Source: Opitutales bacterium
GTDB taxonomy: Bacteria; Verrucomicrobiota; Verrucomicrobiia; Opitutales; Oceanipulchritudinaceae
Direction of reading: 5' to 3'
Assembly (NCBI GenBank): GCA_020831485.1
Contig: JAFIGG010000040.1
Span: forward strand, 1-32,154
DNA length: 32,154 nucleotides
Made by a program: the position numbers and the translations under genes. Within the stretch, counting starts at the first letter, position 1. The number at the start of each line of letters is the position of its first letter. The notes beneath the pieces were generated by a model. That model was not told the origin of the DNA. It made no database searches and saw nothing but the letters and a program-made list of their open reading frames with translations. Shown here piece by piece: positions 9,802 to 32,154 of the stretch.

Positions 9802-9879
9802 TTGGTTCTTTGGTTCTTAGTTCTTGGTTCCTGGTTCTTGGTTCCTGGTTCTTGGTTTGTGGTTCTTGGTTTGTGGGTA
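9802..9879. repeat. Array of about 11 degenerate 7-bp repeats (TTGGTTC-type)
   Basis: From 9802 the sequence repeats with a 7-bp period: TTGGTTC, then after one extra T TTGGTTC, TTAGTTC, TTGGTTC, CTGGTTC, TTGGTTC, CTGGTTC, TTGGTTT, GTGGTTC, TTGGTTT, GTGGGTA. One plus strand is purely G/T/C-rich, unlike its surroundings. It lies between the kdsB stop and the start of the first kinase gene, ending 43 bases before ATG 9923. Heptameric short tandem repeats of this kind are known in some bacterial genomes; copy number could vary by slippage. Whether it affects kinase expression is unknown. Confidence 0.85.
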
Positions 9880-9922: not shown

Positions 9923-12900
9923 ATGGGCCTGAACGACGACAAGACGATCCTGGGAGGGAGCGGCGAAGATGACGGCGGTTCCGGATCCTTGGCAGCGGGC
10001 ACCCAGTTGGGTGACTACCGGATCGTGCAACTTTTGGGTAAGGGCGCCATGGGGGAGGTCTACGAGGCCGAGCAGGTGCACCTCAGACAGCGCTACGCGG
10101 TCAAAGTGTTGCCGGCCGAGCTGAGCCAGGATCCGCGCTTTCGGGAACGTTTCCGCACAGAGGCGCAGACTCTGGCGTCGTTGCGCCATCCGAACGTGGT
10201 TTCCATCCACAATGCCGGCGAGGCTGAAGGACGATTTTTCCTGGTGATGGAACGGCTCGCACCGTTTGAGGATGAACGAAGTTTGGGCGCTGGGGTTGAG
10301 AGGGTTGACGCGATCCGTTCTGTCCTTGAGCAGGTGCTTTCCGGTTTGGTCTACGCACACGGGAAGGGAGTGGTACACCGAGACTTGAAACCTGCGAATT
10401 TGCTGCAGGGTGAGGACGGTGCGGTGAAAATCGGCGACTTCGGTGTGGCCGAGGTCGTGGGTGAAGATTTTGTGCAGTCCGTGGTTAAGGAAACGATCGC
10501 CAGGACGCAAACCGGAGCGGCCTCGACACTGGTGGATCGAGGCAGCGGTTCCGGGTCTGGCTACGCAGGCACGCTGCAATACATGGCCCCGGAAGTGTTG
10601 GAAGGTGCCCGGGCCACAGAGCAAAGCGATCTCTACGCTGTTGGTGTGATGGCTTACGAGTGGCTGACCGGTCGTAAACCGGTGGGGCGGTATAAGGACG
10701 CCAGCAAGCTTGTTGAAGGTTTAGACCCGAGCTGGGACGAATGGTTGAACGGGATATTGGAGCCCGATCCCGACGAAAGGACTGAATCGGCAGAAGCGGC
10801 ATTGGATGGATTGCGGGAACTCAGTAAGCCGGTGGCGGCACCAGATGCAACGGCTTCGAAGCCTAAAGAGGCAGTCCGCCCTGAACGGAAATCAGCTATG
10901 ACTCGGTGGGCAATGGTGTTGCCCTTGCTCGTTATCCTTCTGTCGGCCGGAGCTGCAATGGGCTATTACTACGGGATCCATCTACCAGCGGAGCGGGAAC
11001 GGGAACGGATTGCGGAGGAACAGCGCATCGCGGATGAGGAACGAAGGGCCGAAGAAGCGCGTCTGGCCTACGATGCGCTGAGGGAGCAGATCGATGCGGT
11101 GGCTGAAGAGACGCCCATCACGAAGATGGGAGACTTGGAGCGCGAAGTGGAGGGGTATCTGACGGAAGCTGAAGATCCCTACCGCGGTCAGATCCGAGAG
11201 CGCTGGTTGGAAAAACGATCGGCGGTGGAGCACTACTGGGAAACGGCGCGCGGAGGTTTGACTCTCGACACCGAGCCGTCTGGAGCGGAAGTGCGCATCG
11301 GGGAGCTGCCGGTTGAGCACAGTCCGGTTCGTTTGTCGGATCTGCGTCTGGGAGAATACCCAATCGAAATTGTGCATCCGGGCTATGAGAGTTGGTCTGG
11401 AGTGGTGGAGGTCGAGAATGAACGTCATACCGATATGGGTACAATTGCTCTGGAGCGAAGCACAGGCAGTGTACGGATCGAGGTCCAGCCAGAGGGTGCT
11501 CGTTGGGAGCTGCTCAAAGAAGATGGCGAAATTGAACCTGTTGCCGGCGAGGGAGCTGGCGTGCTGGACGGCCTGCCTACTGGGCAGTACACGCTAAGCT
11601 CTGTGGCCGAGGGCTATCGCGATTGGGAACTGAGGTTGGTTGTCGCCCGAAACGAGGAACAGCCAGTATCCGTTGCCCTGGAATTTCAGCGGGGAAGCTT
11701 GGAAATGACCTTGGCGAACGAACGGATTCTTGAACCGGAGCGCATCCGCATCCTATTGGACGGAGAGGAAGCGCGTTTGCTGCGCACGGATACCGAAGCC
11801 GTTGGCCGGGTCTACAGGGTCGACGAAGTTATTGCCGGGGATCGAGGGTTGGAGATCAGGCATCCGCGGTATGAGCCGCTGACTTTCAACCCGACGATAA
11901 GAGATCGGCGAATAACTGAGCTGGAAGCTGTACTGGAACCATTGCCGGCCCGAGTGGCGCTGGAGGTTCAGGGCCCCGGACGGGGAGAGTGGACGCTGAA
12001 GGCCGGGGGAGAGACGGTAAGTGCCGATAACGACGGTCGTTTTCAGCTGCCTGCCGAAGAAAAGCTGGATTTGCGTGTGAGCGCTCGTGAATGGCAACCG
12101 TGGGAAGAGCAAATGATTCTGGAAGCAGCCGGGGAGCGAGTTCTGCAGGTGGCACTGGAGGAGTATGAGGGACCCCTCGATGGCGAAGATTACAGTCTGA
12201 ACCTTGGGAGCAATTTGGCGCTTGAGCTGGTGTGGATTCCCTCCGGTGAATTTGTGATGGGCTCGCCGTCGAACGAGCAGGGACGTAGGAATGACGAAGG
12301 TCCACAGACGCACGTGCGGCTGACGAGCGGGTTTTGGCTGGGGAAGACGCCGGTGACAGTAGGCGAGTTTCGTGCGTTTGCAGATGAGAGCGGATACCGG
12401 ACCGAGGCGGAACAGGATCCTGAGAAAGGGGTGAATATTTTCGAGACGTCCAGATGGAGGGGAGGCAGTTGGGAGGAGGGGCCCAACCGGAACTGGAGAA
12501 ACACAGCTGCGGATAACGAAAGAAATCCAGTAGTGGGGGTTAGTTGGAACGATGCGATGGCCTTTTGTGAATGGCTGACGGAGCGTGAACGGGAAGCGGG
12601 TCGTTTACCGGAAGGCTTTATCTATACACTCCCTTCGGAAGCTCAGTGGGAATACGCAGCGCGGGCGGGAACGACGACGCCTTGGTCGTTTGGAGACGAT
12701 CCAGCTCAGTTGGGGAATTATGCCTGGTATCAAGGCAATAGTCGAGATCGAGTCCATCCCGTGGGAACCAAACGTGCGAACCCGTGGGGCTTGCACGACG
12801 TCCACGGCAATGTCTGGGAGTGGACTCGGAGCTGGTTCGGTGCCTATCCTGGTGACAGTGTGACGGACTACGAGGGCCCTTCATCGGGTTCTCAACGGGT

Positions 12901-13027
12901 CGACCGTGGCGGTGCTTGGCCCACCGATTCGCGCGGATTGCGTGTGTCCTACCGCGACAGGAGCACGCCGGGCAACCGCTTCAGTCTGGTTGGCTTTCGC
13001 CTTGCCATTGCACCGTCCCCACAGTGA
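9923..13027 (+). CDS. Membrane Ser/Thr protein kinase with PEGA repeats and C-terminal FGE-sulfatase-like domain (paralogue 1)
   Basis: Predicted one-pass transmembrane kinase of 1034 residues. ATG 9923 is preceded by AGGA at a 7-base spacing; the upstream TTG at 9908 is less likely. Residues 31-290 are a Hanks-type kinase: glycine loop GKGAMGEVYEA, ATP-binding lysine in YAVKVL (Lys61), HRDLKPAN (Asp154), DFG (Asp172), and APE in YMAPEVL. The activation segment carries a Gly/Ser run. A transmembrane helix (about 326-351) is followed by a charged helical stretch, PEGA-type repeats (for example PSGAEVRIGELPVE and LRLGEYPIEIVHPGYESW) and, from about 766 to the end, an FGE-sulfatase domain (VWIPSGEFVMGSP, PVVGVSWNDAMAFCEWL, LPSEAQWEYAARAGT, HGNVWEWTRSWF). 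This C-terminal half should be periplasmic. The cysteine pair of true FGEs is absent from the RGGAW region, so it is probably a binding or sensing module. Chlamydial Pkn1 has a related kinase-FGE layout. Confidence 0.9.
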   Translation: MGLNDDKTILGGSGEDDGGSGSLAAGTQLGDYRIVQLLGKGAMGEVYEAEQVHLRQRYAVKVLPAELSQDPRFRERFRTEAQTLASLRHPNVVSIHNAGEAEGRFFLVMERLAPFEDERSLGAGVERVDAIRSVLEQVLSGLVYAHGKGVVHRDLKPANLLQGEDGAVKIGDFGVAEVVGEDFVQSVVKETIARTQTGAASTLVDRGSGSGSGYAGTLQYMAPEVLEGARATEQSDLYAVGVMAYEWLTGRKPVGRYKDASKLVEGLDPSWDEWLNGILEPDPDERTESAEAALDGLRELSKPVAAPDATASKPKEAVRPERKSAMTRWAMVLPLLVILLSAGAAMGYYYGIHLPAERERERIAEEQRIADEERRAEEARLAYDALREQIDAVAEETPITKMGDLEREVEGYLTEAEDPYRGQIRERWLEKRSAVEHYWETARGGLTLDTEPSGAEVRIGELPVEHSPVRLSDLRLGEYPIEIVHPGYESWSGVVEVENERHTDMGTIALERSTGSVRIEVQPEGARWELLKEDGEIEPVAGEGAGVLDGLPTGQYTLSSVAEGYRDWELRLVVARNEEQPVSVALEFQRGSLEMTLANERILEPERIRILLDGEEARLLRTDTEAVGRVYRVDEVIAGDRGLEIRHPRYEPLTFNPTIRDRRITELEAVLEPLPARVALEVQGPGRGEWTLKAGGETVSADNDGRFQLPAEEKLDLRVSAREWQPWEEQMILEAAGERVLQVALEEYEGPLDGEDYSLNLGSNLALELVWIPSGEFVMGSPSNEQGRRNDEGPQTHVRLTSGFWLGKTPVTVGEFRAFADESGYRTEAEQDPEKGVNIFETSRWRGGSWEEGPNRNWRNTAADNERNPVVGVSWNDAMAFCEWLTEREREAGRLPEGFIYTLPSEAQWEYAARAGTTTPWSFGDDPAQLGNYAWYQGNSRDRVHPVGTKRANPWGLHDVHGNVWEWTRSWFGAYPGDSVTDYEGPSSGSQRVDRGGAWPTDSRGLRVSYRDRSTPGNRFSLVGFRLAIAPSPQ

Positions 13028-13073
13028 ACGGGGATTGGACGGCCAATGTGATTTTCAAGTCTCTATTTTGTCG

Positions 13074-13700
13074 TTACCACCAACCGGTGACATGCCCTTG
13101 GGCAAGTTTGACGGCGAAGACGCCGATATTGCTGGCGATGTGGGCGGCGATGCAGGGTAGGAGGGAGCGGTTGTGGTTCCTGAAGCCAAAGCGCAGGGCG
13201 TAGAACCAGATGGAGTTGAGGAAGAGAATGCAGAGGGTCCAGCTGGACTGGGGATCGATGCGGAATTCGAATGCGTGCCAGGCAGCGCCTTCGGGGACTT
13301 CGGTGTAGTACTGGGTGTGAACCAGGGCAAATATCAGTGAGAAGAAAATGACGCTGGCCCAGAGAACCGCCGGGCCTTTGCGGTCGTAAAACAGGTAGCC
13401 GCGAAATATCAGCTCCTCGATAAATCCTGCACCGAGCATCGCGAGCAGGAAGAGGGCGCTGATCTGGCTTTGCTGGGCGCTGACCCCGAGGGCGTATTCG
13501 CCTGCGGTTTCCAGTCCGACCAGCAGCAGGGCACCGATCACGCCGAGAAGTATCAGCGAAGTGCGCGCCCCGGTGGCGCCGGGAAAGGCTCTGGGATTCG
13601 GTTTTCCGGAGCGCCAGGCGCGGTAGTCCTGCCACCAGAGCCAGGCGAGGTAACAGACAGCGGCGAAGAGCGCGAGGATGACAGCGGGATTGTCTTGCAT
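13074..13700 (-). CDS. CPBP-family intramembrane glutamic endopeptidase (Abi/CAAX protease-like)
   Basis: Multi-pass inner-membrane protein of about 208 residues, in the family that includes Rce1-type CAAX proteases and bacterial Abi proteins. Signature segments in order: the double-glutamate motif EELIFRGYLFY, then FALVHTQ with a conserved His, and AAHIASNIGVFA with the third motif His and Asn. Hydrophobic helices lie at the N-terminus (AVILALFAAVCYLAWLWW), at SLILLGVIGALLLVGLE, ISALFLLAMLGAGF and VLWASVIFFSLIFAL, and near WTLCILFLNSIWFYAL. The start is ATG 13700; an in-frame TTG at 13718 would add six residues. It is convergent with kinase 1 and divergent from the polyprenyl synthase gene. 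Its substrate is unknown. Proximity to kinases and an isoprenoid enzyme does not prove a shared pathway. Confidence 0.87.
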   Translation of the reverse strand: MQDNPAVILALFAAVCYLAWLWWQDYRAWRSGKPNPRAFPGATGARTSLILLGVIGALLLVGLETAGEYALGVSAQQSQISALFLLAMLGAGFIEELIFRGYLFYDRKGPAVLWASVIFFSLIFALVHTQYYTEVPEGAAWHAFEFRIDPQSSWTLCILFLNSIWFYALRFGFRNHNRSLLPCIAAHIASNIGVFAVKLAQGHVTGWW

Positions 13701-13723
13701 CGGTGCTGTTTGAGACAATCGGC

Positions 13724-13772
13724 CGCTTGATTCAGGTCAAGCGCTGAGCGCGTTGTCGGCGTCGGCGCTTGA
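13724..13772. promoter_or_regulatory. Inverted and direct CGCTTGA repeats in a divergent promoter region
   Basis: In the gap between the divergent CPBP protease and polyprenyl synthase genes, CGCTTGA (13724-13730) pairs perfectly with TCAAGCG (13737-13743) across 6 bases. CGCTTGA occurs again at 13766-13772. Three copies of the same heptamer within 50 bp suggest a DNA-binding protein site serving one or both genes. No matching protein is identifiable. Confidence 0.35.
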
Positions 13773-13814
13773 TTTTCTTTCTCCAGCGCCTAACTTGCTG
13801 AACAACTCCCCATT

Positions 13815-14831
13815 ATGTCATTGAGCGACCCGTACAACAATTTGGCTTCCGAAGTGAATGCCGCTGAAATTCTCGAGCCTGTGGCAGGCCACCTTGAGCA
13901 GCTGGAGGATTACCTGCAATCGCAGATCGAAGCCTTTGAGCCGGAGGTTCAGCCTCTGGTGGAATTCACCTTGGGCCACAGCGGCAAGAAAATCCGACCG
14001 GTGCTGGTCTTTTTGAGCGGCTATCTGGGTGAAGAAGAGGCGAGTCCCGAGCTGGTGCGGGCGGCGGCCATCGTCGAGTTGGTGCATCTGGCAACGCTGG
14101 TGCACGACGACATCCTGGATGAAGCGGACCTGCGGCACCAAGTGGAGACCGTGACCGCGCGCTACGGTCCACACAGTGCGGTGCTGTTGGGCGATGCCCT
14201 GTTCGCGCATGCGCTGAAACTGGCTGCGGACTACCCGACGCCGGAGGTTTGCCGGGCGGTCGCGGAGTCCACCCGCCAGGTTTGCAGTGGAGAAATCTGC
14301 CAAACTTTTGCCCGTGGGGACGGCGACCTGTCCCTTCCGACTTACCTGCGCATCATCGACCTCAAAACAGCGGAGCTGTTTGCGGTGTCGGCCCGCCTGG
14401 GTGCCCGGCTCTCAGGGGGCTCCGAAGATTGGGTGGCTGCGGCCGAGACCTTTGCCCGCAAGCTGGGGGTGGCCTATCAGATTTACGATGACCTGGCCGA
14501 TATCATTGGCCGCGAAGACAAGGCGGGCAAGACCTTGGGAACGGATCTGGAGAGCGGCAAACTGACGCTGCCGGTGCTGTATTACCTGGAGGAATTCGAA
14601 GGCGCTGAGCGGGCAAAAGCCTGGCAGGAAATGCGCAACATGTCGCACGCCGAGCGGTTGCAGCTGCTGACTGAGAAGGCTGCGGTTCGGCGCACGCATG
14701 ACTACCTGGTCGCAGAGCTGGGGGCTGCGAGGGAATTGTTGAACCGTTTCCCGGATCTGCCAGCCTCCGCATGCCTGGCACCCTTGACGCTTTGGGTCGA
14801 GTCGGCCTTGCACAAGTTGCTGCATGCCTGA
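13815..14831 (+). CDS. Trans-polyprenyl diphosphate synthase (octaprenyl/heptaprenyl type)
   Basis: Soluble all-helical enzyme that adds isopentenyl diphosphate units to an allylic primer, making the long side chain of a respiratory quinone. It has 338 residues, typical of the long-chain class (IspB/HepT). Visible motifs: GKKIRP (57-62, substrate binding), first aspartate-rich motif LVHDDILDEADLRH with Asp98, Asp99 and Asp102, GEICQ (159-163), LKTAELF, and second aspartate-rich motif YQIYDDLADIIG with Asp225, Asp226 and Asp229, then GKTLGTDLESGKLTLP. Residues just before the first motif are small (Ala-Thr-Leu), consistent with a long product, but chain length cannot be fixed by eye. The gene lies directly before the second kinase gene (31-base gap), so co-transcription is possible. 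A menaquinone would suit the nearby NrfH quinol dehydrogenase. Confidence 0.92.
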   Translation: MSLSDPYNNLASEVNAAEILEPVAGHLEQLEDYLQSQIEAFEPEVQPLVEFTLGHSGKKIRPVLVFLSGYLGEEEASPELVRAAAIVELVHLATLVHDDILDEADLRHQVETVTARYGPHSAVLLGDALFAHALKLAADYPTPEVCRAVAESTRQVCSGEICQTFARGDGDLSLPTYLRIIDLKTAELFAVSARLGARLSGGSEDWVAAAETFARKLGVAYQIYDDLADIIGREDKAGKTLGTDLESGKLTLPVLYYLEEFEGAERAKAWQEMRNMSHAERLQLLTEKAAVRRTHDYLVAELGAARELLNRFPDLPASACLAPLTLWVESALHKLLHA

Positions 14832-14862
14832 GGCACGGCTTTGACGCGGCCGCCGCATCCAG

Positions 14863-17800
14863 TTGACCACAGCGATTCCGGAATTATGTTTGAGTGCTGT
14901 GGATGCGGATGAAACACTGATGAGTCCCGACGGTTCCAATGGGCCGTCTTTGCTGCGTGCAGGGGATCAGCTGGGGCCTTACAAGGTGATTCGGCTGCTC
15001 GGTGCCGGAGGCATGGGTGAGGTTTACGAGGTCGTGCACCGTGACCTCGGTAGCCATTTTGCCATCAAACGCATTCATCCCGATCTGCTGAAGCGAGGCG
15101 AAGGCAGTGCGCGCTTTCGTCGGGAGGCACAGGTCATGGCCCGCCTCGCGCATGCGAATATTGTGCATGTGGATGATTTTCAGCAGGCTGATGGCGAGGC
15201 CTGGCTGCGCATGGAACTGATCCAGGGAGGCAGTCTGGCTGACCGCATGCGGGCGCTGAAGGGCTCTGCAATGCAGGAAGAGGCTGTTTGTGAAGTGATT
15301 CGGCAAACACTGTCCGCCCTGGATTACGCGCACGCGCAGGGTGTGGTGCACCGCGACCTGAAACCGGCGAATATCCTGTTGGAAGGGGGGCATACCGTCA
15401 AAATCACCGATTTTGGTCTGGTCGGATTGGCCGATCCGGATTGGCTGGAATCAAGATTGCGCTCAACCACTCAGGCGCCACCTAGTATGGGCGAACTCAA
15501 AACGCGCATGGCAACGTCCGGAGACGAACCGGGGCGGTCGCTCCTTGGGACCTTTGCCTACATGAGCCCTGAGCAGAAACAGGGGCAGAAAGCCGGTCCG
15601 CAAAGCGACTTGTATGCAGTCGGATTGATGGCTTTTCAACTGCTCACCGGTGAGGAATCTCCGGGTTTTAAGCAGCCTTCGAAACTCAATCCACACATCG
15701 CCGAAGAATGGGATCGCTGGCTGGAGCAGGCGATGGAGACTAAACCCGGACGCCGGTTCCGCTCGGCCAGACAGATGCTCGAGCAGATGCCGGATCCGTC
15801 CGGGCGTAAGGAAGCTTCCGAGACCGGCATTGCATCGCGACGGCCCCGCCGATTGGCCGTGTTTGCATTGTTGGCAGTCGCGACTGCTCTGACGATGGTG
15901 GGTGCCTGGCACTATCTGGATGACTGGCTTCAGGACCTTCGAACCACTCGAATGACAACGGAGGAACCGGTCGCTCCTGAGATTGCCCCAGACGCTGAAG
16001 AGTCGGCTGCGGGTGAAGCAACGGTATCCATGGCGCCTCTTAATTTGCGGATTGAACCAGTGGAACCTTCGACCCGTGTCTGGCTGGGCGATCACTCCGG
16101 GCTCGGAGTGGATTCGGACGGACGGGTTGCGCTGGAAAGGATTGAAGCTGGAACGCATGAGCTGGTGGTGCAGGCACCAGGGTTTCAACCGGTGATCACA
16201 CTTTTGGATGTGCCGGAATCGGGATTGGATACGGTTGTACCCCTGGTGCCGATTCGAGGCGCCTTGATTTTGCGCAGCAATCCCGGTGTGCGGGTGCTTG
16301 CAGTGGACGATGATGGGCGGCGCATCGAACTCGGAACCACCGATGCCGATGGCTTGCTTGAAAGTCGGGACCTGTTGCGCATCGGCCGCTATCAATTGCA
16401 GTTGGGCGCACCGGATCGTGTAGATGTCGAACAGTCGGTGGTGTTGCCTCTGGGCAGGCCGGCGGAGCTGCGGCTGTCGCTGCCACCGAAGCCCGGTTCC
16501 CTACGCGTGCTGACGACTCCTGACGGAGCGCAGGTTCATGTGTCCAGCGAGCCTTGGCCGAACGATGGGCAAACTCCGTTTGAAGTAGAGGAGGTTCCCG
16601 CCGAGGTGGAGGTCGAGGTCGTGGCTCAATTGCAGGGGTATCGACCCCTGCGGAAGAAGCTGCAACTGGACGCCAACGAAAGGCGCACGGTGAATCTCGG
16701 TGAGTTTGTTACAGAGCGCGCGGACTTGGAGCTGAGGCCAGGGCCTGTGGAGGTGGATCCGGAACTGCTTGAAGTGAGCCTGGGAGACGCAGGGAGTTCG
16801 CCGAATGGAGGGCCTCTGCGCTGGCAGGATCTTGCGCCAGGTAGCTATTTACTGGAAGCCAGGCACCCGGACTTTGAGCCCTATCGGCAGGAATTGACTC
16901 TGGAGGACGGCGATAGCTTGGTTTACGACCTGAACCTCGTGCCCTTGCCGGCCGAACTCGACCTTGAGGTGAGCGGGCCCGAATCCTATAAGGTTTCGGT
17001 ATTTGCTGGGGATCAGCGGATTGAGTCAGGTTCGGGCGATCGTCTGCGCCTGCCGGCTCTAAAGGATTTGAAAGTTCGGGTGGAAGCTGAGGAATGGATG
17101 CCCGTAAGCGAAGAATTGCGTTTGCAGCCAGCAGAGCAGCGACAGCTGTCCTTTGCGATGGAACCAGTGGAATGGCCAGGGACCGGAGAGGACCACGCCC
17201 TGGAGCTGAATGCGGAGGAAAGCATTCGCTTTAAATGGCTGCAGTCGGGCCGGTTTATCATGGGCTCTCCCGAATCGGAATCAGGCCGTTACGAATGGGA
17301 GGGGCCTCAGACTCGGGTCGATATTGAACACGGTTTCTGGATGGCCGAAACACCCGTCACAGTAGGGCAGTTTCGGGAGTTTACACTGGAAACGGGCTAC
17401 CGGACGGATGCGGAGCAGGATTTGCGGCGCGGCGTGCGAATTTGGAGGAATGGTCAGTGGGAGGAGGGCTCCGGTCGCAGTTGGCAGTCTGTTTTTGCCG
17501 AACGCTCTGATTATCCCGTCGTCGGTGTCAGCTGGAGAGATGCCCAGGCCTTTGTTGAATGGTTGAACAGGCGCGAGTCGCAAGCCGGTAGGTTACCGCC
17601 GGGCTATGTTTATGGATTGCCCTCCGAAGCCCAGTGGGAATATGCCGCCAGGGCTGGAACCCAAAGCCGTTGGTCCTTTGGCGACCGCCGGCAAGACCTC
17701 GCTGAATATGCCTGGTTCGAAGCCAACAGCGGCGAGCGTGTTCAGCCAGTTGCGCAAAAAGCGCCCAATCCATGGGGCCTCTATGACATGCACGGCAATG

Positions 17801-17985
17801 TGTGGGAGTGGACCCGCAGCCCCTGGCGCGAACAGACTGGAGCGGATGCGGGTCAAACGCGTGTCTACCGCGGTGGATCCTGGATCAACGAAGCCAATCA
17901 GACCCGGTCGGCCCATCGTTTGCGTTCCGGTGAGGCTTTTCGGAGCAGTATTCTGGGTTTCAGGGTGGCTCTTGTTCCAGAATGA
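14863..17985 (+). CDS. Membrane Ser/Thr protein kinase with PEGA-like repeats and C-terminal FGE-sulfatase-like domain (paralogue 2)
   Basis: Paralogue of the 9923-13027 protein, nearly equal in length (up to 1040 residues). Kinase domain residues 40-310: GAGGMGEVYE, Lys69 in FAIKRI, HRDLKPANIL (Asp165), DFG (Asp183), and SPE in place of APE. One transmembrane helix lies at about 330-351 (LAVFALLAVATALTMVGAW). A long presumably periplasmic part follows: beta-rich PEGA-like repeats (about 390-770, for example PGSLRVLTTPDGAQVHVSSE and GSYLLEARHPDFEPY), then the FGE-sulfatase-like domain (about 784-1040: SGRFIMGSP, YPVVGVSWRDAQAFVEWL, LPSEAQWEYAARAGTQ, MHGNVWEWTRSPW, YRGGSW). Again no Cys near RGGSW. 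The start is uncertain: TTG 14863 is the longest, while a GTG at 14899 would begin just before DADETL, matching DDKTIL of paralogue 1. No clear ribosome binding site. The zinc-ribbon membrane gene follows after 53 bases. Confidence 0.88.
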   Translation: MTTAIPELCLSAVDADETLMSPDGSNGPSLLRAGDQLGPYKVIRLLGAGGMGEVYEVVHRDLGSHFAIKRIHPDLLKRGEGSARFRREAQVMARLAHANIVHVDDFQQADGEAWLRMELIQGGSLADRMRALKGSAMQEEAVCEVIRQTLSALDYAHAQGVVHRDLKPANILLEGGHTVKITDFGLVGLADPDWLESRLRSTTQAPPSMGELKTRMATSGDEPGRSLLGTFAYMSPEQKQGQKAGPQSDLYAVGLMAFQLLTGEESPGFKQPSKLNPHIAEEWDRWLEQAMETKPGRRFRSARQMLEQMPDPSGRKEASETGIASRRPRRLAVFALLAVATALTMVGAWHYLDDWLQDLRTTRMTTEEPVAPEIAPDAEESAAGEATVSMAPLNLRIEPVEPSTRVWLGDHSGLGVDSDGRVALERIEAGTHELVVQAPGFQPVITLLDVPESGLDTVVPLVPIRGALILRSNPGVRVLAVDDDGRRIELGTTDADGLLESRDLLRIGRYQLQLGAPDRVDVEQSVVLPLGRPAELRLSLPPKPGSLRVLTTPDGAQVHVSSEPWPNDGQTPFEVEEVPAEVEVEVVAQLQGYRPLRKKLQLDANERRTVNLGEFVTERADLELRPGPVEVDPELLEVSLGDAGSSPNGGPLRWQDLAPGSYLLEARHPDFEPYRQELTLEDGDSLVYDLNLVPLPAELDLEVSGPESYKVSVFAGDQRIESGSGDRLRLPALKDLKVRVEAEEWMPVSEELRLQPAEQRQLSFAMEPVEWPGTGEDHALELNAEESIRFKWLQSGRFIMGSPESESGRYEWEGPQTRVDIEHGFWMAETPVTVGQFREFTLETGYRTDAEQDLRRGVRIWRNGQWEEGSGRSWQSVFAERSDYPVVGVSWRDAQAFVEWLNRRESQAGRLPPGYVYGLPSEAQWEYAARAGTQSRWSFGDRRQDLAEYAWFEANSGERVQPVAQKAPNPWGLYDMHGNVWEWTRSPWREQTGADAGQTRVYRGGSWINEANQTRSAHRLRSGEAFRSSILGFRVALVPE

Positions 17986-18038
17986 AATCTTCGGTGCTGG
18001 CTTTTCCCCCTTTGATTCCGCTAGACTCCTGAACTGTT

Positions 18039-19259
18039 ATGGAATGGGACCTCAATACTCTCCTCTATGCGGTCGGTGCGATGGGCTTGTTTTCGTCGCG
18101 TGCAATCATACCGGCCTTTTTCACCGCCTTGATGATGCGCTACGGCGGTAGTCTGCCTTTTCTCGGGGAGGTTGAGTTCCTGCAGACCTCGGGCCAGGAG
18201 CCGTCCTGGTTCACTCACAATGGAACCATCTTCATTCTGGGTGTGCTGGCGCTGGCTGAGGTCATTGCCAACAAATCGCCTGAAATAGAGGAGGCCATGG
18301 AGTCCTTCTATAAGTCGGTCAAAAGCATTATGGCGGCCCTGACGACGATGGGTGTGTTGAGTTCCAGTGATGCGGCGTTTATCAGCGAGACGGTTGGAGT
18401 GACTCAGGCGGGTGTCCTGGATTTGGTTGTCAGCGGCACCGTAGCGGTAGTGGTTTGGCTCATTGCGAGCCTGCGCAACCTGCTGATGGAGGTGGTCATG
18501 TTTGCCGATCCGGATGGGTCCATCGGCCTGCGCAAATTGATCAGCTGGTTTGAGGATATCTGGGCCTCGGTCGGCATTATCTTCCTCTTCCTTTACCCGA
18601 TTGGGATGACGATCCTGATTCTGCTGGTCGTGGCCGTTATGGGGGTGATGAAGAAGCTGCGCGAACGCAGCGAGGAGAAGTCCAAGCGCCCCTGCGTCGC
18701 TTGCAATGAACCGGTCTACCCCTGTGCATTGACCTGCCCATCCTGCAAAGCGGAACAAAGGGATGTCCATGCCATCGGCTTCTTCGGTCAGTCTTTGGTC
18801 AAACCAATTGCCGACAAGCAGAGTGCCTCCCTGGCGCTTGCCGAAAAGAAGCGTTGCCCGCACTGTGCCACCCGCCTGCCAAAGCGCGATGCACAACAGG
18901 AGTGCCCCGGTTGCGGCGAAACCACTTTCAGCGAAGCAAGCTTCAATCAAGCCTACGTTGCCCAAGTCACCCGGCGTGTCCCCAAGGTTGTGGCCATCAG
19001 CGCTCTGTTCAGTTTGATCCCGGTTATCGGACTGATCCCCGGCGTCATCTACTACCGGATAGCACTGGTTGCGCCATTTATGGGCTATCTGCCGGCGGGC
19101 CGGAGCTTTGCGCTGAAGATTCTACTGCGCATCGCGCTCCTGCTGCTCATTGGTTTACAGCTCATCCCAGGCATTGGCGTGGTATCCGTACCGGTAATGG
19201 CGCTTTTGAGCTACGGTCTCTACCGAAGCTCCTTTACTTCCCGGGTGAGTCTCGGCTGA
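18039..19259 (+). CDS. Multi-pass membrane protein with two cytosolic zinc ribbons (DUF4126-like N-terminus)
   Basis: A 406-residue protein of unknown function. The N-terminal half has hydrophobic helices (about 5-33, 62-78, 125-145, 175-203) and resembles DUF4126-type membrane proteins (GLFSSRAIIPAFFTALMMRYG; ALAEVIANKSPEIEEAME). A charged segment (204-217) leads to two CxxC...CxxC ribbons: Cys219/222 with Cys233/236, and Cys273/276 with Cys289/292. These should bind zinc. A C-terminal pair or trio of helices (315-345, 358-395) with VIGLIPGVIYYRIALVAPF follows; this part resembles zinc-ribbon membrane proteins sometimes found near signalling genes. The ATG is 53 bases after the stop of kinase 2, so the two may be co-transcribed and the ribbons may be a cytosolic docking or substrate module. 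That link is inferred. The stop is 1 base from the convergent aldo/keto reductase stop. Confidence 0.8.
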   Translation: MEWDLNTLLYAVGAMGLFSSRAIIPAFFTALMMRYGGSLPFLGEVEFLQTSGQEPSWFTHNGTIFILGVLALAEVIANKSPEIEEAMESFYKSVKSIMAALTTMGVLSSSDAAFISETVGVTQAGVLDLVVSGTVAVVVWLIASLRNLLMEVVMFADPDGSIGLRKLISWFEDIWASVGIIFLFLYPIGMTILILLVVAVMGVMKKLRERSEEKSKRPCVACNEPVYPCALTCPSCKAEQRDVHAIGFFGQSLVKPIADKQSASLALAEKKRCPHCATRLPKRDAQQECPGCGETTFSEASFNQAYVAQVTRRVPKVVAISALFSLIPVIGLIPGVIYYRIALVAPFMGYLPAGRSFALKILLRIALLLLIGLQLIPGIGVVSVPVMALLSYGLYRSSFTSRVSLG

Positions 19260-26768: not shown

Positions 26769-29700
26769 ATGCTGAAAAAAAGACTGAATCCGCTGCTGAA
26801 GGCGCTTGGCTCTCTTCGCTTTACCATAGTTCTACTTGTATTCAGCATGATGCTGACCTTTCTGGCGACGATGGCGCAGACGCAGATCGGGATTTGGGAA
26901 GTGATGAGTCGCTACATCCGGACATTTTTTGTCTGGCATGAGATTCCGGGTCTTGGTGAACTGCCGATTTTTCCAGGAGGATGGATTCTGGGCGGGCTCC
27001 TGTTCATTAATATATTGGCTGCTCACTTTACCCGCTTTCGCATGGGTTGGCGGCGTGTTCCGCTGATTCTTATCCATGGAGGCATCGCCCTGTTGCTGAT
27101 TGCTGAGTGGGTCACCGGGGTATTCGCGAAAGAGATGAACCTGATGTTTGATGAGGGCCAGGAGAAGTCCTACCTGGAGCATCCACGGGAGTCCGAGTTT
27201 GTTCTCATCGATACCACGGATCCCGAAATTGACCGCGTTTACGCTGTGCATGAATCCCACCTGGCTGCGGGGCACCCCGTAGTGCAGGAAAGCCTGCCGC
27301 TGCGCGTCGAGGTTCGGGAGTTTTTCCAGAATTCAAGAGTCTTCCTGTTGCCACCGGAAACAGCTGCAGCGCACCCGGATGAAGCGCCGGCGGAGCGCGG
27401 CTTGGGGCCGCGCTTGCGGATGACAGAGGAACCCAGGGTCGTTTCGACCGACGGACGCAATGTGGTCAGCGCAGTGGTCGAAGTGTTTTCAGAGGAATCG
27501 GATGAATCGCTGGGAACCTGGGCTGTTTCCAGTGTGCTGAACGAACCACAGACATTTGAATATGGCGACCGCAGTTACCGGATCGCCATTCGGCCTGAAC
27601 GCGAATACCTCGGCTATTCGCTGCAGCTGTTGAAATTCACCCATTTGCGTTACCCGGGCACCCAGATCCCCAAACACTTTGCAAGTCAGGTGCGGCTGCG
27701 GAATCCGCAAACCGGGGAGGACCGGGAAATCCATATTTCGATGAATCAACCGCTGCGTTACCGGGGCAAAACCTTTTATCAGGCGAGTTATGCGAATGAC
27801 GATCAGACCTCCATCCTCCAGGTGGTGCGCAATCCGGGTTGGACCTTGCCCTACATTGCCTGCCTGGTGGTGACCGTTGGGCTGATCTGGCAGTTGGGTC
27901 TGGGTATCAGCCGGCGGCCACGACGGAAAAATGCGGAGGGTTTGGAATCTGCGGCCGACGCGAAACCAGCACCGATGGGCTGGCTGGGCTGGTTGGCGAT
28001 GACGGTGGTCGCGGCCTGGATCTGCAGCGGACTATTTCGTTCCAGCGTTTCGGAGGAGCGTCCGGACCTGGATACCTTTGGAGCCCTGCCGGTGCTGGCC
28101 GACGGACGGCTGAAATCCATGGATTCGATGGCCCGTGGCTATTTGCGCGCCTTGAGCGGCAAAACCTCGGCACGCACGGCTGATGGCGACAGCCTTGATG
28201 CGCGTGAATGGTTTTTGATCGTTTCGGCAGAGCCGGAGCGGGCGGACCGGATTCCCGTGTTTACGATCTTTCATCCGGAGGTGATGTCCATGCTCGGACA
28301 GGAGCCGCGTAGCCGACTGACTTTGGCCTTTGAGGATATCCGTGATTATGGTGCGGTGATCCAGCACCAGGCAGAACATATCCGTGACATTGAGCGCGCG
28401 GACCGCAGTCAGTTTGAAAATGCGGTGTTGCAGCTGGATTACCTGCTCACCTTGTATTGGCGTCTGCGGCACAGCTTGCACCTCAATGATCCGAGGGGGC
28501 TGGACGATAAAGTTGTCAGCTTCCAAACAGAGATTCACCCGCGCTTTCGCGAAATGCGCGCGATGGGCGACGGCAGCGGGGTTCCAGAGCAGTTGATGGG
28601 TGGGATGCATCAGGCCATCACACGCTTTGCAGTGATGGATGATTTTGCCCAGTATGCGCCGATCCCATACCGGGGTGGGGAGGAGCGCCCGCGAGGGGAC
28701 TGGGTGACCATTGGGGCTGCCTTCCAGCGGAGCTTGCAGGCGGATGCCCTGCATCCTGGAGTTGGCTATTACCGTGACATATTAAGGGCCTGGGAAACGC
28801 AGGACTACGCGGCATTCAATCAGGCGGTCGGCAGTCTCGGAGCCTGGATGAGTGCTCATTTTGGCACGGCGGCTCACCGTGCGGAGTTTGAACACAGTTT
28901 CAATCGCCTTGCCCTGTTTTGGAAGGGAGCCGCCCTGTATGTGCTGGTGTTTTTGGTGGTTGCGGCTTCCTGGTTAATCGGACCGCGGCTGAGGACCATT
29001 GCTTTGGGCCTTGGCTGGCTGACCTGGACCGCGCACACGATTGGTTTGTTGATGCGGATGTACATTCAGGAACGTCCGCCGGTGACGAGTCTGCATGCTT
29101 CGGCGATCTTTGTCGGCTGGGTTGCGGTCTTTCTCGGTTTGGTGCTGGAACGGAAACTACGCAATGGACTGGGGATAGCGGGGGCTGCGGTGCTGGGTTT
29201 TCTGACGCTGGTCGTGGCGCACAATCTCGGTGGAGATGGAGACACTATTGAAGTCATGCGGGCAGTGCTGGATTCCAATTTCTGGTTGGCAACGCACGTT
29301 GTCGTAATAACGATCGGCTACGCTGCGGTCTATCTGGCGGGTGCACTTGGCATTGCCTACCTTATTGCGCGGCAGATTCCGCGCGCCTGGAGTCCACAGT
29401 TACAGACTTCCCTCTACCATTCCGTACTTGGAGTTGTTGGTTTTGCCTTACTGTTCAGCTTTGCCGGAACGGTATTGGGCGGTATCTGGGCAGACCAGTC
29501 CTGGGGTCGATTCTGGGGCTGGGATCCCAAGGAAAACGGTGCCTTGCTGATCGTTTTGTGGATGGCGGTGATCCTGCACCTTAGGATTGGCAATATGGTA
29601 TCGGAGAAGAACCTCATGGCCTGTGCCATCTTCGGCAATATCATCGTCGCTTTCTCATGGTTCGGCGTGAATATGCTGGGAGTCGGATTGCACTCCTATG

Positions 29701-29810
29701 GATTCATGGAGGGTGCCCCGTTCTGGCTGGGTGTGTTTATGCTTTCCCAGTTGCTGTTCATGGCATTGGCCCTGCTGCCGGAACGGCGGGCTTTGGAGAC
29801 GGATCAGTAA
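26769..29810 (+). CDS. ccsBA: Fused cytochrome c biogenesis protein ResB-CcsA (system II haem lyase)
   Basis: Inner-membrane synthetase of 1013 residues that moves haem outward and attaches it to apocytochromes c. The ResB half has helices at about 13-38, 71-91, 95-118 and 356-378 with a large periplasmic loop between. After a further helix (about 399-420) comes a second periplasmic domain (420-715) opening with ALPVLADGRLKSMDSMARGYL. The CcsA/ResC half follows from about 718 with several helices and the WWD haem-binding motif WGRFWGWDPKE (about 912-922). A single polypeptide like this is known from Epsilonproteobacteria and Bacteroidetes. The ATG at 26769 is immediately preceded by a GC hairpin. 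The stop overlaps the nrfA stop on the other strand. Because NrfA has a CXXCK site, it may be the NrfI-like lyase for that haem. Confidence 0.93.
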   Translation: MLKKRLNPLLKALGSLRFTIVLLVFSMMLTFLATMAQTQIGIWEVMSRYIRTFFVWHEIPGLGELPIFPGGWILGGLLFINILAAHFTRFRMGWRRVPLILIHGGIALLLIAEWVTGVFAKEMNLMFDEGQEKSYLEHPRESEFVLIDTTDPEIDRVYAVHESHLAAGHPVVQESLPLRVEVREFFQNSRVFLLPPETAAAHPDEAPAERGLGPRLRMTEEPRVVSTDGRNVVSAVVEVFSEESDESLGTWAVSSVLNEPQTFEYGDRSYRIAIRPEREYLGYSLQLLKFTHLRYPGTQIPKHFASQVRLRNPQTGEDREIHISMNQPLRYRGKTFYQASYANDDQTSILQVVRNPGWTLPYIACLVVTVGLIWQLGLGISRRPRRKNAEGLESAADAKPAPMGWLGWLAMTVVAAWICSGLFRSSVSEERPDLDTFGALPVLADGRLKSMDSMARGYLRALSGKTSARTADGDSLDAREWFLIVSAEPERADRIPVFTIFHPEVMSMLGQEPRSRLTLAFEDIRDYGAVIQHQAEHIRDIERADRSQFENAVLQLDYLLTLYWRLRHSLHLNDPRGLDDKVVSFQTEIHPRFREMRAMGDGSGVPEQLMGGMHQAITRFAVMDDFAQYAPIPYRGGEERPRGDWVTIGAAFQRSLQADALHPGVGYYRDILRAWETQDYAAFNQAVGSLGAWMSAHFGTAAHRAEFEHSFNRLALFWKGAALYVLVFLVVAASWLIGPRLRTIALGLGWLTWTAHTIGLLMRMYIQERPPVTSLHASAIFVGWVAVFLGLVLERKLRNGLGIAGAAVLGFLTLVVAHNLGGDGDTIEVMRAVLDSNFWLATHVVVITIGYAAVYLAGALGIAYLIARQIPRAWSPQLQTSLYHSVLGVVGFALLFSFAGTVLGGIWADQSWGRFWGWDPKENGALLIVLWMAVILHLRIGNMVSEKNLMACAIFGNIIVAFSWFGVNMLGVGLHSYGFMEGAPFWLGVFMLSQLLFMALALLPERRALETDQ

Positions 29811-31306
29811 CCCGGCATTGCAGCTGAATCAGGCCCGGAGGACATGCGGGCTTCCCGCTCCGCAGCTTCTTCGAGCCAGCGAGGGACGACCTTTTCGAGG
29901 AACTCCTGCTTGTTTTCTTCGAGTTGATCCATGTCCAGACCGATGTATGCCTGGGCTTTGGCTTTGGTCGAAATGTCGGGCATTTCAATCGGATCAGTGA
30001 CACCATTCTTATGGAGAACGCGGACAATGAGCCGTCGCGCTTCAGCTGCTTTGTCGATCGAAGTGCCGAGAATGCGCGCGGATTCCAGGGGCGAATGAAT
30101 GCCCATTCCGTTGGCGGCAGCGACAAAATCCCAGCGCCATTGCGAATGACGAATCAACTGCAGGATGGGGGCCATCTGTTCTTCGGTGGCGCCGGCATCC
30201 CAGGCTGCCTTGGCTTCAATGTGTGTGGTGGCTAGCAAGGGTTCGGCGATGCGGCGCAATTCGTGAATGCGGTCCTGACGCGCGTATACGCCTTCGCGCA
30301 GCGATTGCTCGCTTTCCCTGTGGCAGACCTGGCAGGCGTTGGCAATATTGTTGAGGGGGCTTTGCAGATGGTGATCGGTGAACTTGACGCCACCTTCGCT
30401 GCGGTAGGGCATGTGGCAGTCGGAACAGGAAACACCGCGTTCCGCGTGCACACCCGTTAGGTAAAGTTCGTAGTCCGGGTGCTGTGCCTTGAGCATAGGT
30501 GCCCGGCTGAGGCTATGAACCCAGTCCACGTGTTGAATGTTGTCGAAGTAGGCCTCCATGTCCTCGACCCCAGTCCCTCTGTCCCAGGGAAAGGTCAGGT
30601 AATTCTTGGGCTCTTTGGCAAAGTAGTATTCGACGTGGCATTGGGCGCACACCAGGGAACGCATTTCCTGGTGCGTGACTTCCTGGATGTTTTTCCCTTG
30701 GCGGTCAAAGGCTTCGATGAGGGCTGGTCGCGTAATGCGAAGGTTCATGGTCTTGGGGTCGTGACAGTCCTGGCAGCCAATGTGATTGACCACTTCCGAG
30801 CCCAGTTCCCGCCAAGTGCTGGCGTAGAATTCTTCCACGCCCATTTCATTCATCAACCGAGGCACATCGGTGCTTTTACAGGTCCAGCAGGTGCCTGGCT
30901 GGGGCACATCCGTGCGCAGAGTGTTGTGCACGTCTTTGACCGAGTAGTAGTGACCTCTGCCCTGGTTGTAGTCGCGGGAGAACGCATACCCGGCCCACAT
31001 GACAATCAGCTCTGGATACTTCTCGAGATAGTCGATCATCTTCGAGCCCGCATGTTTGCTCTCGAAATCGGTGCGGGCGGTCTGGCGGTAGCGGTCATAC
31101 TGGCGTGGATACTGTTGCCCCCAAACCTCATTGCGTGGCTCCCATTCGGGCATCGGCTGGACCTGCTGGGTGATGAAGGCTTCCTGCCGGCGCTCAATGA
31201 TGGATGCGCCAAAAAGGCCGAAGATAAATACGAGCAGCAGGGTGATGCCGAATAGCAGCCATCCGGTCCAGGGCTTTTGTTCCACGAGTTCAGCGATACT
31301 TTTCAT
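29804..31306 (-). CDS. nrfA: Ammonia-forming cytochrome c nitrite reductase, catalytic subunit NrfA
   Basis: Periplasmic pentahaem enzyme reducing nitrite to ammonium with six electrons. From ATG 31306, which has GGAG 7 bases upstream, it has 500 residues. Residues 13-36 form a hydrophobic signal or anchor. The active-site haem has the diagnostic lysine-ligated motif CWTCK (140-144). Four ordinary sites follow: CQDCH (178-182), CAQCH (220-224), CSDCH (294-298), CQVCH (325-329). Active-site elements include Tyr in CAQCHVEYYF and the His in KAQHPDYELY, both conserved in the family. The start overlaps the nrfH 3' end by 17 bases, indicating translational coupling in an nrfHA operon. The C-terminal tail after EEAAEREARM is short and variable. 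The 3' end overlaps ccsBA by 7 bases. Confidence 0.97.
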   Translation of the reverse strand: MKSIAELVEQKPWTGWLLFGITLLLVFIFGLFGASIIERRQEAFITQQVQPMPEWEPRNEVWGQQYPRQYDRYRQTARTDFESKHAGSKMIDYLEKYPELIVMWAGYAFSRDYNQGRGHYYSVKDVHNTLRTDVPQPGTCWTCKSTDVPRLMNEMGVEEFYASTWRELGSEVVNHIGCQDCHDPKTMNLRITRPALIEAFDRQGKNIQEVTHQEMRSLVCAQCHVEYYFAKEPKNYLTFPWDRGTGVEDMEAYFDNIQHVDWVHSLSRAPMLKAQHPDYELYLTGVHAERGVSCSDCHMPYRSEGGVKFTDHHLQSPLNNIANACQVCHRESEQSLREGVYARQDRIHELRRIAEPLLATTHIEAKAAWDAGATEEQMAPILQLIRHSQWRWDFVAAANGMGIHSPLESARILGTSIDKAAEARRLIVRVLHKNGVTDPIEMPDISTKAKAQAYIGLDMDQLEENKQEFLEKVVPRWLEEAAEREARMSSGPDSAAMPGY

Positions 31307-31985
31307 TGGAGCTCTCCGATTGGGACGTTTCAATTGGGGTCGGATTGCCGTCGCTGCTGGAGCGCCGGCGGGTAAAATCTAAAAGCCAGTCTGGAATGGC
31401 GGGTTCGAGCCCCGGCACGCGCACGTGCTCAACCGAGGCCAGGCTGTTGACGCGGCCATGGGGAGTTTCGCGGTGACATTCCCAGCACAGCATACCCTCG
31501 CCATGGCGGGCCATGGAGCCGGTTATTTCCCGTAGGCTGGTGCGGTGCAACTCGTGCTCGTGACAGCGGATACAGTTTTCCTGAACGACATTCTGGCCGG
31601 CCTCATGCATGCGGATGACCTGGGGTTCGAGCCGGAAGGTGAACATGTAGGCGTGGCGACTGCCATCCATTGCCTTGAAGTAATAGGTGCGCGCAATGTG
31701 GTCGTGCGGCACATGGCAATCATTGCAGGACGCCACCCGGCCGTGGCTGCCGCGTTCCCACGAGGCATATTGGGGAATCATGACGTGGCAATTGATGCAC
31801 GCCCGGGGATCATCCGAGAGATAGGAAGTGGCGTTGGAAAGGTGAACGGTGAGCAGACCTATGCCGCAAAACACACCTCCGGCGAACAAAACGAGCGGCA
31901 TCCATTGGCGCGGGGGTTTAAGCCAACGAAGGAAGCGGGACAGGAACTCAACAGGGCGGGGCACGCAGTGAAAGGGGTTGGACAT
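31290..31985 (-). CDS. nrfH: Cytochrome c quinol dehydrogenase NrfH (nitrite reductase membrane subunit)
   Basis: NapC/NirT-family membrane-anchored tetrahaem cytochrome that takes electrons from menaquinol and passes them to NrfA. From ATG 31985 it has 231 residues: one N-terminal helix (about 28-48, MPLVLFAGGVFCGIGLLTVHL), then haem sites CINCH (63-67), CNDCH (87-91), CIRCH (138-142) and CWECH (167-171). The first reads CINCHVM, so Met69 is placed like the unusual methionine ligand of Desulfovibrio NrfH. The frame is open to 32135, but the extra 50 residues look unlike the family and contain a perfect inverted repeat, so I place the start at 31985. No Shine-Dalgarno is seen there. First gene of the nrfHA operon; its C-terminal coding end overlaps nrfA. 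Confidence 0.95.
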   Translation of the reverse strand: MSNPFHCVPRPVEFLSRFLRWLKPPRQWMPLVLFAGGVFCGIGLLTVHLSNATSYLSDDPRACINCHVMIPQYASWERGSHGRVASCNDCHVPHDHIARTYYFKAMDGSRHAYMFTFRLEPQVIRMHEAGQNVVQENCIRCHEHELHRTSLREITGSMARHGEGMLCWECHRETPHGRVNSLASVEHVRVPGLEPAIPDWLLDFTRRRSSSDGNPTPIETSQSESSNEKYR

Positions 31986-32056
31986 TATGTAAACATCTGG
32001 CCGAAGCGGGATCAAGGTTTTTTGGTGTTTAAGGCCTTCCACCACTTGCTGGAGTG

Positions 32057-32082
32057 AATTTTGGATTGAAAGGTCCAAAATT
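32057..32082. promoter_or_regulatory. Perfect inverted repeat upstream of nrfH (candidate operator)
   Basis: AATTTTGGA (32057-32065) and TCCAAAATT (32074-32082) form a perfect 9-bp dyad with an 8-base spacer, 72 to 97 bases before the nrfH start codon. A TTGACT -35-like hexamer lies just upstream on the minus strand (32090-32085), but a matching -10 is not clear. The symmetry and position suggest a binding site for a nitrite, nitric-oxide or anaerobiosis regulator. It does not match the FNR consensus (TTGAT-N4-ATCAA) or the E. coli NsrR consensus. Alternatively it is a hairpin in the leader RNA. Confidence 0.55.
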
Positions 32083-32154
32083 TCAGTCAATAGTCCGGCA
32101 GTGGTGCGACCAATAAATTTTTTCACTTTTGCCATAGCGGATTGCCAGCGCCAT

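Follow-up and report, generated by a model that had tools for sequence, protein, structure and literature searches.

The closest described receptors come from Planctomycetota. In the main text of a kinase survey that included Verrucomicrobiota outgroups, the sulfatase-modifying-factor domain is the third commonest kinase-associated domain and lies mostly extracytoplasmically in single-pass kinases (PMC11032199). That main text is silent on PEGA, on FGE cysteines and on pseudokinases; the supplementary tables may list PEGA-FGE kinases. A literature search for kinases with an FGE-sulfatase domain, either combined with PEGA or in Verrucomicrobia, returned no paper. In Xanthomonas PknS, the kinase is cytoplasmic and a periplasmic sensor part modulates autophosphorylation (PMC13147305), and in actinobacterial PknG/OdhI the N-terminal tail, when phosphorylated, recruits an FHA substrate (PMC8546545). 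Cyanobacterial variable proteins of diversity-generating retroelements (DGRs) join a kinase to an FGE/C-type-lectin-like C-terminal binding domain (PMC7517822).

The DNA analysed here (the window, 32,154 nucleotides from an Opitutales bacterium) is the whole of contig C117 in an assembly of 142 contigs (3.86 Mb, 96.8% complete). It encodes two transmembrane Ser/Thr kinases, K1 and K2, which resemble the surveyed Planctomycetota proteins in their predicted cytoplasmic kinase, single transmembrane helix and external FGE-fold domain. Single open reading frames with both a kinase and an FGE domain were also found in Planctomycetota, Lentisphaerae, Pontiellaceae and myxobacteria. The kinase-FGE class is published for Planctomycetota, where the survey describes it as common, and the statement in the initial annotation that such a system was not described for this group was too strong. 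The kinase fold of K1 and the single-pass topology of both proteins are like those of M. tuberculosis PknA/PknB; however, the ectodomain of PknB is PASTA, whereas K1 and K2 have PEGA. PknS and PknG differ from both in having TPR sensors, other tail sequences and no FGE domain. K1 and K2 share the kinase-to-head arrangement of the cyanobacterial DGR proteins, but neither a DGR nor a second copy of the K1 3' end was found in the window's genome. We put at roughly 0.7 the probability that K1 and K2 are separate single-pass receptor kinases of the Hanks type (PknA/PknB), drawn from a nine-kinase family, with dead FGE-fold (C-type-lectin-like) ligand-binding heads and a module-swapped origin. As members of a known receptor-kinase kind, the two proteins themselves look ordinary for the phylum.

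Architecture of the two receptor kinases

Table 1. Coordinates of the kinase genes, their parts, the adjacent genes and related pseudokinases (window positions unless a locus is given)
Feature	Position	Strand	Basis
K1, transmembrane Ser/Thr kinase	9923..13027	+	1034 aa from ATG 9923
K1 N-terminal tail, disordered, with DDKTIL (residues 5-10)	9923..10003	+	pLDDT, motif enrichment
K1 kinase domain, catalytic residues all present	10016..10819	+	Pfam, alignment, model, Foldseek
K1 transmembrane helix (residues about 329-347 from ATG)	10907..10963	+	hydropathy, model
K1 predicted extracytoplasmic helical linker and PEGA/CarboxypepD_reg-type beta repeats (residues about 402-749)	11126..12169	+	low model confidence
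K1 FGE-fold head	12224..13024	+	Pfam, Cys count, sequence and structure matches
CPBP/Rce1-like membrane protease gene	13074..13718	-	Pfam; unlinked to kinases elsewhere
Polyprenyl synthase gene	13815..14831	+	Pfam; unlinked to kinases elsewhere
K2, transmembrane Ser/Thr kinase	14863..17985	+	1040 aa from TTG 14863
K2 kinase domain, catalytic residues all present	14980..15780	+	Pfam, alignment, kinase tree
K2 transmembrane helix (residues 331-349)	15853..15909	+	hydropathy
K2 PEGA-type stalk	16015..17199	+	sequence comparison
K2 FGE-fold head	17236..17982	+	Pfam; Cys count in last 60 residues
DUF4126 membrane protein with CxxC zinc-ribbon motifs	18039..19259	+	Pfam; neighbour of K2
Pseudokinase examples	L113:6843-9896, L116:6627-9611, L124:6089-9193 and 14 further loci		17-sequence alignment

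The order of five parts proposed in the initial annotation (tail, kinase, transmembrane helix, PEGA-type repeats, FGE domain) was borne out for both proteins by Pfam and transmembrane prediction (Table 1). Matches to Pkinase, PEGA and FGE-sulfatase followed one another at residues 32-262, 444-503 and 768-1028 of K1 and at residues 40-266, 545-612 and 793-1036 of K2. The Pkinase scores were 146 and 155 bits (cut-off 31.7), and the Gly-loop, VAIK Lys, alpha-C Glu, HRD Asp, DFG Asp and APE were found in both proteins, so that the catalytic sets are intact, as first noted. The PASTA-kinase (PknB/Stk1) equivalog gave only 190 and 200 bits against a cut-off of 450, which places both proteins outside that family, and no PASTA repeat was detected in either by Pfam. 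Each protein has one transmembrane helix with positive charge on the kinase side, as expected of single-pass receptor kinases by hydropathy and positive-inside count, and the helix is also present in the structural model of K1. The kinase would accordingly face the cytoplasm, with the PEGA stalk and FGE head outside the cytoplasmic membrane, and surface sensing by each of the two is plausible from this topology and the domains.

In the K1 model, pLDDT was mostly above 90 in the kinase and head and low in the stalk; the N-terminal tail (pLDDT <50 over residues 1-20) and part of the activation segment were disordered. The transmembrane helix continued in the model as a long helix to about residue 395. 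PknA/PknB of M. tuberculosis occupied Foldseek ranks 1-4 for the kinase fold. The K1 frame is open from TTG 9908, upstream of the ATG at 9923, and about ten TTGGTTC heptamers stand in tandem just 5' of the gene (window 9802-9871), an array whose length possibly varies between strains. For K2, GTG 14899 is the likelier start and is preferred over TTG 14863, because no ribosome-binding site is evident at the TTG and the protein read from the GTG begins MDADETL..., an N-terminus resembling those of its paralogues.

Ancestry of the modules, the heads and the neighbourhood

A Pfam profile search of the window's genome found Pkinase nine times, on eight contigs, and FGE seven times. Five of the nine kinases bear an FGE domain (K1, K2 and those on contigs C46, C121 and C21). 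The other four, of which all but C52 were scanned for domains, include one with PEGA alone (C53), one with Sel1 repeats (C137) and one with RDD (C9). When 120-residue windows were compared along each protein, residues 1-300 of K1 matched the genome's own C53 and C137 kinases (about 60-70%), residues 361-600 matched C46 best (up to 58%), and the sequence from about residue 600 matched K2 and the relative G005:C94, with C46 also near in the FGE head. Residues 1-300 of K2 were closest to C21 and to G016:C6 of another genome (about 50-60%), residues 361-660 to G005:C94, with pseudokinases weaker, and the part from about residue 660 to K1. Between the middle PEGA stretches of K1 and K2 no clear similarity is seen; the pairing of the two proteins is confined to their last ~430 residues. 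Long segments are indeed common to the two FGE parts, the stretches quoted in the initial annotation being found in both.

The trees agree with this pattern. The kinase domains of K1 and K2 belong to two distinct clades of their tree, each with full support; K2 groups there with its own genome's C21 and with G016:C6. Constraining the two kinases to be sisters came at a cost of 154.7 log units (p-AU 4e-32). The FGE domains of the two proteins pair in their own tree at 89/90 support, and placing K2 with its kinase relative C21 was rejected (p-AU 7e-11). Because the two trees place the proteins differently, receptor genes must have exchanged parts at least once, and the sequences indicate that K1 and K2 arose by module exchange, with alike heads on different kinases and different sensors within one kinase clade. 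A simple tandem duplication, in which the two are twins of one event whose kinase and PEGA parts later diverged, would account for their adjacency, their shared order of parts and the grouping of their FGE domains; it is nevertheless highly unlikely given the rejected sisterhood of the kinases and the dissimilar middle ectodomains, which require recombination between different receptor genes at least once. The description of K1 and K2 as twin paralogues therefore stands for the last ~430 residues and fails over the full length, and their divergence in the kinase and PEGA parts, correctly seen, was understated: the kinases belong to different clades. The comparison offers a clear example of receptor kinases assembled through exchange of sensor and kinase parts. 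In the relative G005, several near-identical copies of K2-type ectodomains lie at contig ends (L114:2-11548, L148:5886-7862), which suggests that a receptor family was amplified recently and that its copies break the assembly. Two of its proteins, C94 and C70, were considered as kinase-less K2 ectodomains and set aside, since they are open at contig ends and are probably truncated kinases.

The FGE-sulfatase matches of K1 and K2 are strong (186 and 173 bits against a cut-off of 23.3; E about 1e-50 or better). The nearest solved structures to the K1 head, by sequence search and Foldseek, are TvpA, PvdO and FGE. The copper-binding catalytic pair of human FGE is Cys336/Cys341; in the alignment of K1 to human FGE no Cys stands opposite either residue, and the last 60 residues of both K1 and K2 contain no Cys. 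Both proteins are thus FGE-like by fold and profile but lack the catalytic pair. Since the pair is missing, the heads are probably binding heads and not FGE enzymes, and this is the best reading because the fold is common to ligand-binding proteins such as TvpA. That the heads are enzymes after all (generating formylglycine, or oxidising in the manner of EgtB or PvdO), with the kinases regulating sulfatase maturation or some other modification, is very unlikely, even though the profile match and the likeness of the K1 head to FGE and PvdO in sequence and structure speak for it and PvdO-type chemistry may do without the Cys pair. Against it are the absent cysteines and scores for both proteins far under the NCBIfam cut-offs for EgtB, SenA and PvdO. 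Diversification of the heads for ligand binding by a DGR is extremely unlikely. The closest solved sequence to the K1 head is a variable protein (T. denticola TvpA, variable protein 1), and in cyanobacteria the proteins targeted by DGRs are frequently kinases bearing a C-type-lectin fold (PMC7517822); however, the sole RVT_1 match in the genome is DRT2-type, and a DNA search with the terminal 145 bases of K1 found no second copy in the assembly. These two results largely refute the idea, save for sequence absent from the 96.8%-complete assembly. The reverse transcriptase itself (L152:1102-2448) is of the DRT2 defence type (PADLOC Drt2, 495 bits). The 'FGE' annotation of K1 and K2 is not to be taken as a sign of sulfatase activation.

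The genes around the kinases are a CPBP protease, a polyprenyl synthase and a zinc-ribbon membrane protein, with identities and positions as first annotated. It had been proposed that these and the two kinases act jointly in surface sensing, the zinc-ribbon protein being a kinase substrate. The genes are physically close, and K2 and the zinc-ribbon gene lie on the same strand 53 bases apart; but the CPBP gene, on the opposite strand between K1 and K2, means that the kinases do not form one operon. Nor did any specific neighbour recur when the other open reading frames of the window were compared by blastp with all fetched kinase loci; the few hits, weak or partial, came from the window's symporter and cytochrome c assembly protein. 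Homologues of the zinc-ribbon/DUF4126 protein were found in 8 of 55 genomes, the window's included, and no kinase or FGE gene stood beside them in eight relative loci (L132-L139). With nine kinases over eight contigs and no constant neighbour in the sampled loci, a locus-level system is not supported, and we consider it very unlikely; as regards neighbours, this is the outcome that the initial annotation named as refuting its proposal. As a substrate, the zinc-ribbon protein was not an obvious candidate, having no conserved link to the kinases and no tail-type motif evident by eye. The simplest view of the polyprenyl synthase gene is that it serves housekeeping isoprenoid synthesis. Given the adjacency and sister-like heads of K1 and K2, a functional pairing of the two, through a shared ligand or cross-phosphorylation, is possible. 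Elsewhere in the window are a ResB/CcsA-type cytochrome c assembly fusion protein (26769-29810) and an adjoining cytochrome c nitrite reductase pair (cytochrome c552/NrfA-type, 29804-31333; NrfH, 31290-32135).

The tail motif and a proposed mechanism

Of 18 active kinases sampled in the order, 12 carry an acidic-Thr-aliphatic motif ([DE]x(0,1)T[ILVM]) N-terminal to the kinase domain. It occurred there 18 times, where 2000 shuffles gave 2.3 on average and never more than 8; the rate was about 30 per 1000 residues compared with 3.0 in the rest of the proteins, figures that are inflated because the motif was seen before it was counted, the proteins are related and overlaps (DETI/ETI) were counted twice. 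There was no excess in the tails of 46 kinases of other groups (2.8 per 1000). Pseudokinases were intermediate, with 7.4 per 1000 in the first 40 residues, which only suggests that the motif was lost alongside catalysis. In the activation segment, with the ETI/ETV of a conserved helix masked, 18 copies were counted in 7 of the 18 proteins, mainly relatives; the motif there is clear in these relatives and degenerate in K1 and K2. In Zixibacteria and FCB MAGs the kinase tails carry a motif resembling DDDNTRTH, and GDNPT recurs in the activation segment of a Hydrogenedentota kinase (L192, L196, L197, L219, L162); other lineages may use acidic-Thr motifs of their own.

For ligand binding, activation and phosphosites we infer the following course. 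The FGE-fold head would bind a ligand (protein, glycan or wall component), and binding would alter clustering or conformation across the single helix, whereupon the kinases would trans-autophosphorylate. The tail motif (DDKTIL in K1, DADETL in K2) is a likely phosphosite and, once phosphorylated, could recruit a phospho-Thr reader, a step modelled on the tail-FHA recruitment of PknG (PMC8546545). The genome search turned up a single FHA-domain protein (L244:1120-2349), about 11 kb from the C121 kinase; by analogy with PknG/GarA docking (PMC8546545) it is a hypothetical candidate for such a reader.

An order-wide pseudokinase relative of K2

A protein of ~930-1070 residues with a pseudokinase, a transmembrane helix, PEGA and FGE is encoded by many relatives, both within this family and elsewhere in the order. 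Genomes that have it usually encode one; G016 encodes two closely similar copies, each on its own contig. Among 17 aligned sequences, all contain FGE and PEGA and 14 give a weak Pkinase match; the VAIK Lys, alpha-C Glu and DFG Asp are absent from all 17, and two retain the HRD Asp. A profile of the 17 gave full-length matches above 1000 bits in 10 of 286 genomes of the class, all from this order, with the two best candidates per genome scored and profile members matching by construction. G005:C94 (590 bits) and K2 (409 bits) came next among full-length relatives; beyond the order, matches extended over just part of the profile. In an unrooted tree 20 pseudokinases formed one clade (100/100) apart from K2 and G005:C94. 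By its score, its intact catalytic residues and its position outside this clade, K2 is not a member of the group. YukC/EssB of type VII secretion is likewise described as a membrane protein with a dead kinase fold (PMC9600267); it differs in system and context.

A coaC-like flavoprotein gene lies near 7 of 19 pseudokinase loci, and at three of the 19 a block of flavoprotein, DUF432-like, MscS and pseudokinase genes was seen. On contig C137 of the window's genome (L233:3366-5584) the flavoprotein, DUF432-like and MscS genes are intact, the pseudokinase gene is missing, and the very next gene after MscS is a convergent one of DNA polymerase III delta-prime type. The assembly yielded no other FGE protein of pseudokinase length. 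The simplest reading of this arrangement is that the pseudokinase was lost from the C137 site in the window's lineage. K2 need not be its replacement, as G005 has both a pseudokinase and an active K2-type protein. It is conceivable, though we regard it as doubtful, that K2 bears, in its PEGA-FGE ectodomain, a sensing module specific to the order and usually carried by a conserved, non-catalytic signalling pseudokinase, and that this receptor was lost here while the ectodomain type was kept on an active kinase.

An order-wide transmembrane pseudokinase is unusual for bacteria and testable, and is the part of this analysis that merits follow-up. It raises the questions of what role a conserved dead receptor kinase plays and why one genome has only the active version of the ectodomain. 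If the tentative reading of the K2 ectodomain is true, the same sensor could be read with or without phosphorylation.
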